A stretch of DNA of 64,000 nucleotides. Source: Candidatus Cloacimonadota bacterium (GTDB taxonomy: Bacteria > Cloacimonadota > Cloacimonadia > Cloacimonadales > TCS61). Both the position numbers and the translations under genes were made by a program. The notes beneath the pieces were generated by a model. The model searched no databases and had not been told where the DNA came from. It was given only the letters and a program-made list of their open reading frames with translations. The stretch lies in NCBI GenBank assembly GCA_021736135.1, contig JAIPGO010000002.1, positions 46,698 to 110,697 on the forward strand. The letters run 5' to 3'. Position 1 is the first letter of the stretch. Every line of letters begins with the position of its first letter. Of the stretch, positions 2,177 through 9,906 are shown piece after piece.

Positions 2177-2605
2177 TTAAAATCTTAAATCACTATTTAT
2201 CGGATTAGGTCCCAGTTTTCTGATCTTTTCGGAAAATTCATTGACGATCTCAATATAGCGCTTGCCCTCAGATGCCGATACCCAGGAAAGCTGGATTCGT
2301 TCCGGCTCGATCTGCAGTGTGGACATAACCTTTTTTAACAATGCCACCCGGCGTCTTGCATAATAATTACCAACCTGGTAATGACAATCGCCCGGATGTC
2401 AGCCGGCTACCAGTATGCCGTCTGCCCCATTGAAATAGGTGGTCAATAATAAATTATGGTCAATACGGCTGGAACACATCACCCGCACCACATTCAATGA
2501 TGCCGATATTTCCTTTTTCGATGCCCCGGCCATGTCCGCTGCTGCATAAGTGCACCAGTTACACAAAAAACCCACTATCCGTGGTTGAAATTCTCGCTCT
2601 TCCAT
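2177..2605 (-). CDS. mvhD: MvhD-type (methyl-viologen-reducing hydrogenase delta subunit) iron-sulfur protein, predicted selenoprotein with Sec at in-frame TGA 2399-2401
   Basis: ORF 2399..2605 ends GADGILVAG*. Reading through the TGA in frame gives UHPGDCHYQVGNYYARRRVALLKKVMSTLQIEPERIQLSWVSASEGKRYIEIVNEFSEKIRKLGPNPINSDLRF, stop TAA at 2177-2179. The whole fits the MvhD family, whose conserved motif is GADGVLVxGCHPGDCHY. Confidence 0.93.
2366..2382 (-). promoter_or_regulatory. Candidate bacterial SECIS hairpin downstream of the mvhD UGA
   Basis: On the mRNA strand AUUACC-AGGUU-GGUAAU forms a perfect 6-bp stem. The 5-nt loop has G at position 2 and starts 22 nt after the UGA. Confidence 0.75.
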
Positions 2606-2685: not shown

Positions 2686-2910
2686 CTAAAACTGGATCTG
2701 AGCAGAATGTGTGCCCGTGCCATCATCTGCGCAAAACATTAATGTCTTGCCAGTACGATTACACCAGGCTTGAATATCTGTCGGGAATGACGGACAATCT
2801 GCTACTACTTCCAGAATATCACCTTCTTCCATATTTGGAATAAAAGCAACTACTTTCAAAATCGGTTGCGGGCACTTTAACCCGACGCAATTTAATGTCT
2901 TTACGGCCAT
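2686..2910 (-). CDS. TusA/SirA-family sulfur (or selenium) carrier protein
   Basis: NCVGLKCPQPILKVV, the CPxP TusA signature; 74 aa. Confidence 0.93.
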   Translation of the reverse strand: MAVKTLNCVGLKCPQPILKVVAFIPNMEEGDILEVVADCPSFPTDIQAWCNRTGKTLMFCADDGTGTHSAQIQF

Positions 2911-3178: not shown

Positions 3179-4333
3179 TCAAGTCTTTTGTTGGGAGCGT
3201 TGATATTTTTTTTCGGCAAAATCATGTATTAATGTTTGTATTTTCTTGTTATCTGCACCGTCTTGAAAAAGGAATCCACCTCCTGAGTTTTCGATATAGC
3301 CTTGATTAAGTGCTCCTGAATATACTTCTCTGCCAATCGTGCTTCTTACCACAATCGTTGTATAACCATCATCTGAACCTAATCCTCCCGCCGATATGTC
3401 TGAATAGTCGTTGGAAAAATCTGAGCAGGAAAGACATGCCGGCCGCGCGATTTGTGCTATTTCCGCTAATGGTATATTGATTGTTATTCCTGATTTCATT
3501 TGCAGGATAAGTTTTTCTTTGATATTAACTTTTTCAATATCTTCAATATTGATGCTGTGTTTGGCTGCAAAATCACGCTTCAACAGATCTTCAAGCGTAA
3601 AACACTGCATACAAAAAAGACCTATTGTGAATATTATCAAATCTGACGGAACAATATTTAACTCCTGCATTTTCCGGATAGTATTAATTTGACAGGGAGT
3701 TCCAACCATTGCCAGTTTCTTGACATTTCGATCTTTGGTAGTTATTTTATTGATTACGCTTATCACCTGATACTTAGATGCATAGATGTCGCCCAGTTTA
3801 TCAAGATGAAATGCTTCAGTAAAAAAAGAACCGGCAGCATTAATGACATCTTCTCGATTATATGCTATTGTCGGAGTGCGTACGCCTTGATCATTATGGG
3901 AAACTATTGCGCCATCTATTATATGATTATCAAGCATATAAGTCAATAATGAACTCACAACGCCGCCATCCGTTGCAGCAGCCAGGATATTAGCATCAGT
4001 TGATCGTGATGAAAATATTTTTTCCCAGTTGCCTTGAGGATATTTCCACTTGTGTGTAAATTTTATTTCCTCATCAAGTATTCCTGTCTGGGGACAAAGA
4101 AGATAACATAATCCCCCTTCCAGACATTTACTTTGATCAGCAAATCTCGGGTATCCATCTTCCCCAAACTCAAGAGCCCCTAAATTGTTTGCACTGCAAA
4201 ATGACACACATCCACCACAGCGAGTACACAATTCAGTCTTGATTATTTCATTGTATAAACCCTCAAAGCTTAATGATCTTCCTGATAACATTCTATCCTC
4301 CCAGTAAATGGAAAAATCAGGGAGTGGATACAC
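3179..4333 (-). CDS. FrhB/FpoF-like coenzyme F420 hydrogenase/dehydrogenase beta-subunit family Fe-S flavoprotein
   Basis: LCTRCGGCVSFC ... CLEGGLCYLLCPQTG ferredoxin clusters, then DGGVVSSLLTYMLDNHIIDGAIVS and MVGTPCQINTIRKMQ, typical of the FrhB family. Confidence 0.85.
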   Translation of the reverse strand: MYPLPDFSIYWEDRMLSGRSLSFEGLYNEIIKTELCTRCGGCVSFCSANNLGALEFGEDGYPRFADQSKCLEGGLCYLLCPQTGILDEEIKFTHKWKYPQGNWEKIFSSRSTDANILAAATDGGVVSSLLTYMLDNHIIDGAIVSHNDQGVRTPTIAYNREDVINAAGSFFTEAFHLDKLGDIYASKYQVISVINKITTKDRNVKKLAMVGTPCQINTIRKMQELNIVPSDLIIFTIGLFCMQCFTLEDLLKRDFAAKHSINIEDIEKVNIKEKLILQMKSGITINIPLAEIAQIARPACLSCSDFSNDYSDISAGGLGSDDGYTTIVVRSTIGREVYSGALNQGYIENSGGGFLFQDGADNKKIQTLIHDFAEKKYQRSQQKT

Positions 4334-4350: not shown

Positions 4351-5202
4351 CTATTCCACCAAATTAGAACTATCAGAATCCCATTCGTAAAATGCTCCGT
4401 CATATACCCGAACTTGCGGATAATCCAGCAGAGAGGTCAGTGCTACATATACTATACCGGCTCTCACACTAGTGGCACAATAAAGAATGATTTCCTTGTC
4501 GCTGGTGATATTGGCGGATTTCAGCAGAGCAGCGATTTCTTCTTTGGATTTCAGGGTTTCATCTTCATTTAATAACTGCACATAATTAAAATTGATGGCT
4601 CCCGGAATGTGCCCTTTTCTCTTCAACTTTTCATCTTCGTTTTTTCCCATAAATTCTTCCGGACTGCGCACATCCACAAGCAAAACACCCTTGTCAGCAA
4701 GATGTGATCTCACATAATCCATGGAAGCGTAAATATTCTCATTTACTGAAGCATTAAAAGTAACAGGAGCGACTTCTGTAGCTTTTGCTGTTACTGGTTT
4801 GCGTGCTTTCATCCAGCTTTTAATGTGACCGTCGAGAATGCTCATATCTTTAGCGCCCATATATTTCAAAATCCAGTATAACCTTCCGGCAGCCTTATTA
4901 GAGCCATCATCATAGATCACGATCTTGCTGTCTGCAGAAATCCCTGTCTCGCCCAGTATTTTAGCTATCTCGGCTACTGGTTTAAGCATTGCTTCCACAC
5001 CTTCTGCCGCATACAGGTCATTGGGGTATAAATTTATTGCGCCAGTTATATGTTTGCTGGCATAATCTGAAGGATTACGCGCAGAAACAACCACCACATT
5101 TTCGCTCTTCATCATGTCTGCCAGTTCTTTTGCGGTGACAACACCCGCAAAAACCTGGATGCTGATCAGAAGAACAATTATTAATAATATGAGTCTCTTC
5201 AT
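4351..5202 (-). CDS. Exported two-domain rhodanese (sulfurtransferase)
   Basis: Signal peptide MKRLILLIIVLLISIQVFAG; two rhodanese domains; second-domain active-site segment IILYCATSVRAG. Confidence 0.9.
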   Translation of the reverse strand: MKRLILLIIVLLISIQVFAGVVTAKELADMMKSENVVVVSARNPSDYASKHITGAINLYPNDLYAAEGVEAMLKPVAEIAKILGETGISADSKIVIYDDGSNKAAGRLYWILKYMGAKDMSILDGHIKSWMKARKPVTAKATEVAPVTFNASVNENIYASMDYVRSHLADKGVLLVDVRSPEEFMGKNEDEKLKRKGHIPGAINFNYVQLLNEDETLKSKEEIAALLKSANITSDKEIILYCATSVRAGIVYVALTSLLDYPQVRVYDGAFYEWDSDSSNLVE

Positions 5203-5217
5203 ATCGAACTCCTCTCG

Positions 5218-6267
5218 TTAAAATTTTACCTGCAACTGCATCAATATCTCGTCATTGGCTTCTTCCCAATCTTCTTCTGCCTTGTAGAGATAGTTCAACT
5301 GCAAGCGCGTCCAGTCGTTGAAGTAATAGTTGATGCCAAAGGTTGTTGTTTTGTGCAAAGCTAAAACACTGGAACTGCTTTCTTTATCCGTGTCAGGATC
5401 ATACTGTTCATATTTTACTATCGGTTGTAAATTCCAGGGTGTCATATACATAAGTTGTGCCCAGAAACCGGCATAATTAGCTGAACCGAGGACCACCTCG
5501 GGAGCATCCCCTCAGTCTCCGCCGCCTTTCAGATGTGATCCGATATCTTCTGCCACGATGTATTCACCTTGAAACAGAAAATCATTGTATGTCAGTTCCA
5601 GGTCGAAAGCCGTTCTGGTCTTCTCATCTTCTTCTTCTATAGTAGGATCAGGTGATAATGACGTTCCAGTTTTGTAGCTTACTCCCAGATTTACATATTC
5701 AATCGGACTTACAACAACTCTTCCGGCAAAGGTCTTGTTTTCATTATCATCCAGACTTTCTCTGCCGGTTCCATTCATGAAGGCAAATGAATATTTTACC
5801 AGATCATTATAATTACCGGTAAACATTATACCGCGATCTCTATCAGGACTTGCCAGCACATTGACTACTTCAGAACGTTTTACTGTATAAAGTCCCTGAC
5901 AAGGCGTATTCAGTTCCAGACTGAAAGGTGATTTGAATTGTCCCAAAGATAAACTTACATAAGGTGAAAAACGTGAATAAGTGATAAATCCATCTAATAA
6001 ATAGGGTGCTCCTTCTTTATTGGGACTGAATTCAAACATGATATAATAGCTGAAATCATAAGGAATATTTCCCACCAGACCCATACGCGCACGGTTAAAT
6101 GTAAAAGTGTTTGTGTCTTCATTCTCGCCAAACTGGTATTCATACTGTGCCTGCAAATAACCGACCACATTCACGCCTTCATCTGAGGAAGCACTCATGC
6201 AGCCCTGACCATAAACCAGGCTCGCTATCGTAAAAAGAAACATTAAGAATAATATTCTATATTTCAT
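5218..6267 (-). CDS. Outer-membrane porin (phosphate-selective porin O/P-like barrel) with one in-frame TGA at 5512-5514; candidate selenoprotein
   Basis: ORFs 5512..6321 and 5218..5496 are in the same frame, separated only by TGA plus 5 codons. Read-through gives ...EYIVAEDIGSHLKGGGD-U-GDAPEVVLGSANYAGFWAQLMYMTPWNLQPIVKYEQ...LQVKF*, a continuous barrel ending in a C-terminal aromatic. Likely start MKYRILFLMFLFTIASLVYG. Confidence 0.8.
5486..5501 (-). promoter_or_regulatory. Candidate bacterial SECIS hairpin downstream of the porin UGA
   Basis: On the mRNA strand CCGAGG-UGGU-CCUCGG forms a perfect 6-bp stem. The loop has G at position 2 and begins 16 nt after the UGA. Confidence 0.6.
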
Positions 6268-6335
6268 AATTTCTCCTTCTAACCTTTCAAATGGGGTCAA
6301 GGCTTTGTTGCCCTGACCCATATTGAATTAACTGA

Positions 6336-7313
6336 TTATGGTGTTGTGACGTATGGAAAATCCGCAGAACCATGCCACTGTTTGTCAGATGCCAGATTGT
6401 CATAGATCATACTATTTACACCAAATCTCAAACTTGCGGCATCATAACCAAGCACTGTAAGATAAGCGGAAACCACTGATGAGGTCATACTTGTCCAGCA
6501 ATAGGTTACGATTTGTTTGTCAGGATCAAGTTTTGAAAGTTCAAGAGGTTTGATGCGATGTGCACCCGCGATATTTCCATAAGTCTCCACATCTGAGGCA
6601 TTCCAGAAATTGTTGATGAAGAAATTCTCCGGCACTTCCAGAACTCCAGCTCCCTCATTAATAGCTTTAACGCCTTTAAATCCGCCAGCAAGCATCGCGG
6701 CAACTCTTTCTGCCAGAATCTCCGCTCCTGTTTCACCTGTAACATCCAGTTCCGGATAGCCATAAGTCATATCTTCTGCAATACTGCCTGGTGCCGCTAC
6801 CCAGTTGTCAGTTTCTATTGTTGCAGTATTAGCTGACCACATATCAAAATCAGTATGCCAGCCGCTCATTCCATATTTTAATACCCTGGCATCATAACCG
6901 CTTAAACGCAATGCCATAGCGTTAAATCCGGCTGACTGTCCGGTCCAGCAGACAACAATTATTGGTTTGCCATCTGAGGCTGCAGCATCAGCTATAATTG
7001 TTGCTGAAGAAGTCAATACGGCACCTTCAATATGACCATCATCATAATCAGGAATACCATTTGCAGGTTTATAGTCACCACTACGCAGATCCATCACATA
7101 ATAATCAGCAATATTTGCATAAAGTGTTGAATCTGGAGCCACTATCCAACTGGTGAGAAGCTCATCAATAGTCATACCATTGCTGTTCATATAGTTGATC
7201 AGCAATTCAAAGTTGCTTTCACTGTTTTCATCCTTTGAACAGCTAAAAATCATCATTAACGGAATTAGGGCAATTAACAAAAACCTAATACTCTTTTTCA
7301 TACTTTTCTCCTT
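6336..7313 (-). CDS. Double-rhodanese-domain lipoprotein
   Basis: Lipobox MKKSIRFLLIALIPLMMIFSC|SKDEN; two rhodanese-like domains with IIVVCWTGQSAG and IVTYCWTSMTSS. Start taken at MKKSIRF, within the longer ORF 6336..7331. Confidence 0.88.
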   Translation of the reverse strand, partial: KEKSMKKSIRFLLIALIPLMMIFSCSKDENSESNFELLINYMNSNGMTIDELLTSWIVAPDSTLYANIADYYVMDLRSGDYKPANGIPDYDDGHIEGAVLTSSATIIADAAASDGKPIIVVCWTGQSAGFNAMALRLSGYDARVLKYGMSGWHTDFDMWSANTATIETDNWVAAPGSIAEDMTYGYPELDVTGETGAEILAERVAAMLAGGFKGVKAINEGAGVLEVPENFFINNFWNASDVETYGNIAGAHRIKPLELSKLDPDKQIVTYCWTSMTSSVVSAYLTVLGYDAASLRFGVNSMIYDNLASDKQWHGSADFPYVTTP

Positions 7314-7317
7314 TTTA

Positions 7318-7857
7318 TTATCCACAGCCACCTGAGCTTTTTACAGCTTCTTCTTCAGGTGCATTCGGATCTAACCATTTTCTATATCCGCCTTTCAGGC
7401 TTTTCACATTTTTGTATCCGAGTTGTTTCAAGGCAAAGGCTGCTAAAGTACTGCGATCACCAGCCTGGCAGTAAAGAACTATTTCTTCGTTTTTAGTCGG
7501 CATTTCCAGCCATAATTCATCATCCCAGTAATCCTGGCTGTCGATCTTAAATTCCAGTATGCCGCGCGGGATGTTCACCGTAAACGTTTCAGCATAAGGA
7601 TATTCGCCTTCTTCATCAGGTTCATTGATATAGCCTTCCGCATATTCACCCGGTTCTCTTACATCAATTAATACACGCAGTTTTCCCTGCTCCATCATCG
7701 CCATCAGATCATCACGGCTGATTTCTGTTATATCAGATTTTACTTCATTTGCCAGAGCTTTACCATTGGCAAAATATCCGCCTTCCGAAAATCCTTGTCC
7801 ACAGCCGGCAATTAAGAGAAGGAGAACAAGTGGTATCAATATTATTAGTTTTTTCAT
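7318..7857 (-). CDS. Single-domain rhodanese lipoprotein
   Basis: MKKLIILIPLVLLLLIAGCGQG lipobox; rhodanese motif IVLYCQAGDRSTLAAFALKQLGYKNVKSLKGGYRKW. Confidence 0.92.
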   Translation of the reverse strand: MKKLIILIPLVLLLLIAGCGQGFSEGGYFANGKALANEVKSDITEISRDDLMAMMEQGKLRVLIDVREPGEYAEGYINEPDEEGEYPYAETFTVNIPRGILEFKIDSQDYWDDELWLEMPTKNEEIVLYCQAGDRSTLAAFALKQLGYKNVKSLKGGYRKWLDPNAPEEEAVKSSGGCG

Positions 7858-7869
7858 TGTTTCCTCCCT

Positions 7870-9087
7870 TTATAATGCCGAAAACTTGCCGGTTTTCTCA
7901 TTCCATTTCACAAAAATATACCAAAGCAACAGGATAAATAGTACCAGGATCACGGCTCCGGTATAACCAAGAACATCTGGTAAAAATAGCTCCTTGCTCG
8001 TTGATTCCGGGATGATTTTCATTACCCAGGGTACAATAAAACCTTTTGATACAGGCGCAAGTATGGCAAAACCCGCTGCCGAAAACCATAACTTCACATG
8101 TCCTTCCCCTGCTCGCCATAATGTTCCCACAGCGCAGCCACCAGCGATGGTCATGCCCAGTCCGAATATGAAACCGCCGATCAAGGCCCGTAACCAGAAG
8201 TTGGCATAAACTGATTTCAACTCGATGGCTCTTACTGATAACTCACCGGCATTACCTACGCCAAAATATTTGATCACTGTAAATCCTAACAGAGCTACAA
8301 TCACACTGATAATAATTGCTACCGGTGCTGTGGCTTCTCCTGTCATAAAAGGTTCCCTGAAGGCACGCACGATACAGTAACGCGAACGCTGCAGTATTAT
8401 TCCCAGTATTAAGCCTATAAGTATATGCCAACCCAGAACTTTCATCGTGCTGGTTCCCTGACTGGTATAATGATGCACTACCCAGAGCACTGCCAGAATT
8501 AAAATCCAGCCCAGCCATCTCTGCCAACCGGTTTTAGGCTGGGATCCAGGCAGTAATGTGCAGGATTTACCCATACTTATTCCGGGTAATGCTTCCATTT
8601 CCCAGAGGATGTACTTTAACGCCACTATCGTCCCCAGCAGAAATCCCAATGATAAAAACAGGGCACCGCCGGATAAAGCCGCTACGCCTGAAAAAAATCC
8701 CCCGGTTGTGCAGCCGATTCCCACTGTGGAACCAATCGCCATTAAACCACCACCGATAAATCCTTTTACCAGTTCGCCCACCGGGGCAACTCTGATGCCG
8801 AATTCCCTCGAAAATAAAGCGGATACGAACGCTCCTAATATTATGAAGATATTAAGAAGCGCTACAGTATGCAGATTTATGGGCGTGTTTGTACCCAACG
8901 AGGATACTCCCAGCCAGTGAAACAGATTCTGCCCGATATTAACATAACCACCACTTGCTCCCCAGGGATACTTGATCACAAATAGAAGTGTACTCAACAC
9001 CGCCAGCAGGATCCCGCCTATCCACATCGGCCAGGTCTTGCTGAAAAGACTGTCAAATAACTCCCTTAAAATTCCCTTTTTGAACAT
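7870..9087 (-). CDS. YeeE/YedE family sulfur (thiosulfate/selenium-type) transporter
   Basis: Polytopic protein with conserved Cys/Gly motifs STVGIGCTTGGFFSG, QRSRYCIVRAFREP and MTIAGGCAVGTLWRAGEG. Confidence 0.93.
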   Translation of the reverse strand: MFKKGILRELFDSLFSKTWPMWIGGILLAVLSTLLFVIKYPWGASGGYVNIGQNLFHWLGVSSLGTNTPINLHTVALLNIFIILGAFVSALFSREFGIRVAPVGELVKGFIGGGLMAIGSTVGIGCTTGGFFSGVAALSGGALFLSLGFLLGTIVALKYILWEMEALPGISMGKSCTLLPGSQPKTGWQRWLGWILILAVLWVVHHYTSQGTSTMKVLGWHILIGLILGIILQRSRYCIVRAFREPFMTGEATAPVAIIISVIVALLGFTVIKYFGVGNAGELSVRAIELKSVYANFWLRALIGGFIFGLGMTIAGGCAVGTLWRAGEGHVKLWFSAAGFAILAPVSKGFIVPWVMKIIPESTSKELFLPDVLGYTGAVILVLFILLLWYIFVKWNEKTGKFSAL

Positions 9088-9099
9088 GGCTGCTCCCTT

Positions 9100-9327
9100 T
9101 TAACCTTTTTTTATGTAAAACTTGAATGCGCCATCTTCCTCTTTTTGTTCTAAAAATACATTCCCGGTTTTTTCACACCAGGCGGGAATATCTGTCTTGG
9201 AACCTGGGTCTGTTCCCAGTAATTCCAGAACCTGACCACTTGCCATCTTCTTGATAGCCTTGCTTAACTTAATGATTGGCATGGGACAGGAAAGTCCTTT
9301 GCAGTCTAAACTTTCATCAACTTGCAT
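9100..9327 (-). CDS. TusA/SirA-family sulfur carrier protein
   Basis: LDCKGLSCPMPIIKLSKAIKKM; directly upstream of the yeeE-like gene. Confidence 0.94.
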   Translation of the reverse strand: MQVDESLDCKGLSCPMPIIKLSKAIKKMASGQVLELLGTDPGSKTDIPAWCEKTGNVFLEQKEEDGAFKFYIKKG

Positions 9328-9546
9328 AATAATTCTCCTTCAGTTTTTTTATCGGCTTGTGAAATCTTTCCTGAAAAATAAAAAACAGCGTATCTCATTA
9401 CTGAAAGCGCTGTTTTCTTGATTTCTATTATAGCTCTTGCTGAAAATACTCCTGTTCCGTATTTTCCTGCAGAACTTTTTCTCTCCATAATGTTATGGAC
9501 TAAGTCCATACCTTATCTCTTTTTTCCTTTTCCCGCCAATTGATTA

Positions 9547-9906
9547 TTAAAATGAGAAGCAAAGATCCGAACCACTCGCCTCTGCTACAAACGTGGTTGC
9601 TCCCACTACCTCTAAGCCTTCTATCAGATCCTCTTCTTTTAAACCATGTACTCCAAATCCCAGCTCACAAACCAGGAACCGTGCTCCCAGCATCTGGAGA
9701 CCTTCCATCATTTCAATAAGATCAGGAAGATTCTTTGCAGTTTCATTCATCTTCTCCATGTAACCTTTGACAAATGCCGGTAAGGCACTCGGCAATATGA
9801 AAATGATCACGTCATCACCACTCGCTGCCGCCGAAACACCTATTGTCACTGTGGGATAAATGTTCTTAACCTCTGAACCATTCAATGTAATTGATACTTT
9901 GCCCAT
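9547..9906 (-). CDS. DsrE-like sulfur-relay family protein
   Basis: 119 aa; VTIGVSAAASGDDVIIFILPSALPAFVKGYMEKM...ARFLVCELGFGVHGLKEEDLIEGLEVVGATTFVAEA, DsrE/DsrF-like fold. Confidence 0.85.
   Translation of the reverse strand: MGKVSITLNGSEVKNIYPTVTIGVSAAASGDDVIIFILPSALPAFVKGYMEKMNETAKNLPDLIEMMEGLQMLGARFLVCELGFGVHGLKEEDLIEGLEVVGATTFVAEASGSDLCFSF

Follow-up and report, generated by a model that had tools for sequence, protein, structure and literature searches.

The reading frame at positions 2177-2605 is almost certainly an intact gene for an MvhD selenoprotein, in which a single in-frame UGA would be decoded as selenocysteine (Sec). For the fuller reading, a Sec-containing MvhD of the FlpD family that would act as an electron relay, we estimate a probability of about 0.9. 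Positions refer to the window, i.e., the whole 64,000-nucleotide stretch of DNA that was analysed, which corresponds to C34:46698-110697 of a 4.14 Mb genome (98% complete, 148 contigs); the features are collected in Table 1. The nearest named relative of this genome, Cloacimonetes bacterium TCS62 (LSCM01000005.1), places the organism in Candidatus Cloacimonadota. An ORF caller applied to 2177-2605 returns 68 aa followed by a stop, and reading TGA 2399-2401, the sole interruption of the MvhD/FlpD frame, as U gives an open frame of 142 aa that ends in TAA. The Sec residue, U69, occupies the position of the first Cys of the G(C)HPGDCHY motif. The first-pass annotation had proposed this split, the context GADGILVAG-U-HPGDCHY and an MvhD selenoprotein with its UGA at the conserved Cys. 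The split and the context are as it described them, and the selenoprotein itself is borne out by the full-length MvhD match, the Sec machinery of the genome and a site that carries only TGA or a Cys codon.

The read-through protein is identified as MvhD by Pfam, by NCBIfam and by solved MvhD chains, a comparison that had been suggested at first pass. It matches PF02662 (FrhD/MvhD/VhuD; FlpD/MvhD) over the entire profile (1-123 of 123) with 166.7 bits, compared to a cut-off of 22.3, and its closest solved relatives are the MvhD/VhuD subunits of heterodisulfide reductase complexes (5odc_D, E=4.7e-43), a similarity that settles the fold. Residues C15, C18, C44, U69 and C74 (CxxC, CS, CxxxxC) align with invariant columns and with 5odc_D. 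The N-terminal CxxC reads CNWC, with Cys at its second position, and Sec lies in UHPGDC, so that the CxxU motif is absent. The MvhD subunits of the Mvh-Hdr, Fdh-Hdr and Elp-Hdr complexes (PDB 5ODC, 7BKB; PMC12350162) are thus similar to the present protein over its whole length and in their Cys positions, whereas the latter has Sec at one of these Cys positions, is encoded with other input modules and belongs to an operon that lacks HdrB and MvhAG.

The gene, termed here paralogue C, is one of three stand-alone MvhD genes in the region, and TGA is found at the identical codon in all three. Paralogue C is 47-48% identical to paralogues A and B and 45-76% identical to Cys homologues. The only other MvhD copy in the genome is an HdrA2-MvhD fusion, without TGA. 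Among 78 distinct readable sequences from 125 scanned Cloacimonadota genomes, the site codon is TGA (53 sequences), TGT (16) or TGC (9), with no other codon. These data bear on the possibility of a sequencing or assembly error at the TGA, or of a pseudogene cut in two. An assembly of 148 contigs and the splitting of the gene by standard annotation would be compatible with such an origin, but the same TGA recurs in the three paralogues and across dozens of independent assemblies, the reading frame continues undisturbed on either side of it, and the hairpin described below is conserved. Since homologues have a Cys codon or TGA at the site and nothing else, the comparison across genomes refutes an error or a dead gene for all practical purposes; this also answers the first-pass reservation that a Cys codon might underlie the TGA. 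Standard annotation splits such genes, and consequently the central electron carrier of the operon would seem to be absent or defective in genomes of Cloacimonadota, and metagenomic counts of MvhD would be underestimates.

Decoding of UGA as Sec in this organism, likewise asserted at first pass, agrees with the presence in the same genome of selC (tRNA-Sec with a UCA anticodon), selB, selA and selD; selB and selC had been named as the genes to look for. The SelD gene (G000:C63:13404-14324, L022) has its own in-frame UGA at the UAAK catalytic site and is therefore itself predicted to encode a selenoprotein. This machinery speaks against insertion of another residue, e.g., Trp under an alternative code, and against general stop read-through. 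An open frame beyond the UGA would fit either of these, but TGA terminates several genes nearby, none of which extends for 25 residues or more beyond it, and the homologous residue is always Cys and never Trp; both are exceedingly improbable.

According to the proposed mechanism, SelB and tRNA-Sec(UCA) would read the UGA as Sec owing to a hairpin located downstream in the coding sequence (Table 1). An Rfam scan of the whole window at gathering thresholds gave no match, and the fold of this gene taken alone is unconvincing: the z-score of the hairpin region is -0.75, and all seven pairs arise at that place by chance in 5.4% of synonymous recodings (p about 0.05). The putative SECIS was therefore judged by comparison. 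All seven pairs are formed in 41 of 42 distinct Sec genes (six in the remaining one), versus 2 of 108 distinct Cys homologues, and the codons under the hairpin (CAT TAC .. GGT AAT) are fixed in the Sec genes (42 of 42) and free in the Cys genes. In a thinned cross-phylum set, 94.7% of the cells of the 7-pair helix are paired, and the closing pair changes between A-U, U-A and U-G; covariation is confined to this pair, the others being near invariant and uninformative alone. The predicted hairpin is decisive only through the contrast between Sec and Cys genes across relatives and is weak as lone evidence, so that its first-pass designation as a good SECIS candidate holds for the comparison and not for this gene by itself. 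Two Sec genes from other lineages (L216, L236) lack such a hairpin, and the element is thus not universal.

The distribution of the Sec site was also followed in a wider genome collection. In 80 loci the site is nearly always Cys, the exceptions being Cloacimonadota, a Delongbacteria genome and one Dehalococcoidales gene. In Desulfobacterota the pattern U-H-x-G-[D/E]-C-H-Y was found in 124 of 395 sampled genomes, and all fetched examples are MvhD; the reversed pattern, used as a control, had no match among the genomes listed for this sample. Most of the checked Desulfobacterota genes and one Dehalococcoidales gene have both the same Sec site and the same hairpin. A CxxU site is used instead in L095, L225 and L230, and both sites occur in L242 and L248, two Desulfobacterota loci with two in-frame UGAs (CTWU and GUHxG[D/E]CHY), i.e., a double-Sec MvhD in bacteria. 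The UxxxxC site is common in Desulfobacterota, although a 2026 review tabulates CxxU as the motif of the family (PMC13188914). A triple Sec-MvhD operon is present in a genome titled Candidatus Delongbacteria (G127:C11; L228, L100), which may be due to lateral transfer, or to a bin that is contaminated or wrongly labelled. Another relative (G073, L087:2373 and 2946) contains, besides its Sec copies, a tandem pair of Cys-MvhD genes, one B-like and one C-like; similar pairs occur in other relatives and resemble the Vhu/Vhc pairs that serve methanogens as a selenium back-up.

Bacteria have been known to contain Sec forms of FrhD/MvhD since 2006, when a set of 19 bacterial sequences was described (Zhang et al. 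2006, PMC1794560), and Desulfobacterium autotrophicum possesses four Sec MvhD proteins (MvhD1,2,3,5; PMC2702500). The first-pass statement that Sec forms of MvhD/VhuD exist in methanogens was thus correct as far as it went, with the addition that they also occur in Deltaproteobacteria and Clostridia, and Sec-MvhD is not new in kind. As in the Sec FrhD/MvhD/VhuD of Methanococcales and of Deltaproteobacteria and Clostridia, the present gene belongs to this family, has a UGA for Sec and lies beside hdrA; it also has in common with the bacterial Sec-MvhD genes examined here a bacterial-type SECIS right after the UGA. What is new is the phylum, Cloacimonadota, the occurrence of Sec in each of the three MvhD copies of a single operon, and the type of operon, which is Hdr/Flx-like, has no adjoining hydrogenase genes and includes a YedE/TusA/DsrE/rhodanese sulfur module. 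A further difference from the described forms is the UxxxxC site in place of CxxU. A text search of the literature for Cloacimonadota together with selenocysteine returned no paper.

Table 1. Features of the mvhD region (window positions, unless a contig is named)
Feature	Position	Strand	Remarks
mvhD paralogue C	2177..2605	minus	predicted selenoprotein of 142 aa; frame runs from ATG to TAA across a single UGA; PF02662 E=2.7e-49
Predicted UGA Sec codon	2399..2401	minus	residue 69 (VAG-U-HPGDCHY); only TGA/TGT/TGC at this codon in the relatives read
Predicted bacterial SECIS hairpin	2366..2382	minus	AUUACCA-GGU-UGGUAAU; starts 16 nt after UGA, 7 pairs, loop GGU
Sec-MvhD paralogue A	G000:C34:39382-39750 (L017)		upstream of window start (A and B 5-10 kb off); separate old paralogue group
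Sec-MvhD paralogue B	G000:C34:43249-43605 (L019)		upstream of window start; separate old paralogue group
HdrA-like flavoprotein, 560 aa	1..852	minus	runs past window start, full ORF C34:45867-47549; hetero_SS_HdrA2 NF040770 E=6.2e-67, below family cut-off
HdrA-like Fe-S flavoprotein, 426 aa	862..2142	minus	adjoins mvhD; NF040770 E=4e-100, below cut-off; order conserved in relatives
TusA-like sulfur carrier	2686..2910	minus	adjoins mvhD in relatives; PF01206 E=6.2e-17
FrhB/FdhB-like Fe-S flavoprotein	3179..4333	minus	PF04432 E=7.9e-38
Double-rhodanese sulfurtransferase	4351..5202	minus	signal-peptide-like start by eye; PF00581 E=2.2e-39; mercaptopyruvate sulfurtransferase and ExtH NCBIfam below cut-off
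Porin_O_P outer-membrane porin, second predicted selenoprotein	5218..6321	minus	TGA 5512-5514; PF07396 E=9.3e-21
Rhodanese-like lipoprotein, two repeats by eye	6336..7331	minus	ORF with conserved place by YedE in relatives; named by eye
Rhodanese-like lipoprotein	7318..7857	minus	ORF with conserved place; named by eye
YedE/TsuA-type sulfur (thiosulfate/selenium) transporter	7870..9087	minus	PF04143 E=2.7e-47
TusA sulfur carrier	9100..9327	minus	PF01206 E=3.2e-28
DsrE-family sulfur carrier	9547..9906	minus	PF13686/PF02635

The gene is part of a predicted operon of 23 minus-strand genes (C34:31572-56603). In the order of transcription, its first part encodes DsrE, TusA, YedE, two rhodanese-like lipoproteins, the porin, an exported rhodanese, an FrhB-like protein, TusA and MvhD-C. 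These are followed by two HdrA-like proteins, two Fe-S proteins, MvhD-B, a 1019-aa HdrA-like protein, DsrE, MvhD-A and an Fe-S protein, and the operon ends with AsrA-like, AsrB-like and HdrC proteins and a 1476-aa GltD-HdrA-like protein. Several phyla retain the core order DsrE-TusA-MvhD-HdrA-HdrA-FeS-FeS-MvhD; in Fermentibacterota, Latescibacterota, Eisenbacteria, WOR-3 and Stahlbacteria, the MvhD of the operon is a Cys version. Sec and Cys versions of one operon are thus available in nature, and a comparison of the two could show the contribution of selenium to a [2Fe-2S] relay beside a bifurcating flavin. Hydrogenase genes (MvhA, MvhG) were sought in the operon and not found; the rest of the genome contains a single partial match to the NiFe family. 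The operon also encodes no CCG-domain HdrB; the CCG protein of the genome is located on C116, next to the HdrA2-MvhD fusion with Cys, and a search of the genome for DsrA found none.

FlxABCD-HdrABC is an NADH-linked complex, and most of its parts have counterparts in the operon: NAD(P)H-binding, Fe-S, MvhD-type, HdrA and HdrC components are present, and HdrB is not. Paralogue A in particular lies beside AsrB/AsrA-like NAD(P)H/Fe-S subunits and HdrC/HdrA-like genes. Unlike FlxABCD-HdrABC, the present operon has HdrA-like proteins that are duplicated and fused, lacks a CCG-domain HdrB and is joined to TusA, DsrE, rhodanese and YedE genes. In solved complexes, the [2Fe-2S] cluster of MvhD is positioned near the HdrA flavin and relays electrons from the input module (PMC12350162). 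Given this role, the present MvhD would link NAD(P)H/Fe-S modules to HdrA-type flavoproteins. The [2Fe-2S]-binding fold has five conserved Cys positions, one of which would be taken by Sec, probably as a cluster ligand or its immediate neighbour, where it may lower the potential or speed electron transfer. As in Mvh-Hdr, Fdh-Hdr and Flx-Hdr, MvhD would pass electrons between an Fe-S/flavin input module and the HdrA flavin, and its putative partners are those encoded here, namely the HdrA-like proteins, the AsrA/AsrB-like NAD(P)H subunits and the sulfur carriers, with no hydrogenase. We consider it probable that the protein is an electron relay in a sulfur pathway, and its likeliest role would be in electron transfer that couples NAD(P)H and ferredoxin to the oxidation, reduction or disproportionation of sulfur.

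Two known sulfur clusters are relevant to this assignment. A Cloacimonadota cluster of Hdr, TST, TusA and transporter genes, for which sulfur oxidation was proposed (Williams et al. 2021, PMC8542988), is probably the same gene cluster, and that text is silent on selenium and selenocysteine. The complete YTD cluster of sulfur disproportionators has been reported from Desulfobacterota and Nitrospirota only (PMC12998232). As in the YTD cluster (PMC12998232, PMC9751629), yedE, tusA and dsrE stand in a row here (7870-9906, minus strand), and the additional genes look rhodanese-like; YTD also comprises conserved hypothetical chp genes, and the comparison covered yedE, tusA and dsrE.

The same neighbours could be taken to suggest that Sec-MvhD is real and that the operon serves selenium handling (selenite uptake or detoxification) and not energy metabolism based on sulfur. 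Links to selenium also exist for YedE, TusA, rhodanese and an ExtI-like porin, and two neighbours match the selenium-related NCBIfam models YedE/FdhT and ExtH, albeit below the family cut-offs. In Geobacter, ExtI, a Porin_O_P protein with an adjacent rhodanese, affects selenite reduction (PMC5877670), and the porin gene is beside a rhodanese gene there as well as here. We consider selenium handling unlikely, however: the operon encodes mostly Hdr/Asr-like proteins, its core is found with Cys MvhD in other phyla, and the similar cluster of Williams et al. was read as sulfur oxidation. The occurrence of Cys orthologues within the same operon in other phyla, with no switch of any kind, also bears on the idea that the UGA is mainly a selenium-controlled switch that yields a 68-aa truncated product under selenium starvation. 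UGA/Sec genes are indeed expected to stop early without selenium, and the extra Cys MvhD copies of some relatives (L087) could then take over; the truncated product, on the other hand, would be devoid of the conserved motif residues past position 69, and such a primary function is very improbable.

The history of Sec usage was assessed in an unrooted tree of 143 rows and 125 columns. Paralogue C falls in a Sec-only clade (support 100/98), the nearest neighbours of which are Cys genes of Fermentibacterota, Eisenbacteria and Latescibacterota, and paralogues A and B each form a Sec clade of their own next to Cys genes. The tree requires approximately 10 changes between Sec and Cys, at least 8 of which are forced by well-supported branches. 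Because the operon occurs with Cys MvhD in several other phyla, parallel gains, from Cys to Sec, would fit best as the direction of change. Within genomes, a 39-nt core around the UGA is 95-100% identical between the B and C copies, compared to about 55-66% in the flanks, which suggests that the SECIS patch was either copied once or is very tightly constrained. A test for gene conversion between B and C gave a small excess of within-genome identity (0.974 vs 0.962 for genome-shuffled pairs, p=0.011) that derives in part from closely related genomes, and ongoing conversion is therefore not proposed. We lean, by a modest degree, towards one sulfur/electron-transfer operon having turned to selenium as a unit, in which three old MvhD paralogues exchanged the same Cys for Sec in parallel, with a near-identical SECIS patch in two of these genes, and the outer-membrane porin became a selenoprotein as well. 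If true, Sec would be a tuned feature of a flavin-based sulfur pathway.

The porin is the more novel finding of the two. The first-pass annotation had considered that Sec decoding in this organism would strengthen the case for its in-frame TGA, and the case is indeed stronger: of the 13 close homologues found in the phylum (L178-L190, this porin counted), with identities down to 46%, 12 retain one in-frame TGA in the same loop, and the thirteenth has Cys there. The accessible parts of the literature on selenocysteine and phosphate-selective porins contain no identifiable description of a Sec Porin_O_P protein; an outer-membrane selenoprotein of the MtrB/PioB type has already been listed (PMC9312934). 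Judging from the conservation of the codon, the porin UGA looks real, and the protein may be a hitherto undescribed selenoprotein porin. The UGA is located in a Gly/Asp-rich loop and is followed by hairpins, mostly with a GG or GU loop, whose stem sequence differs between genomes.
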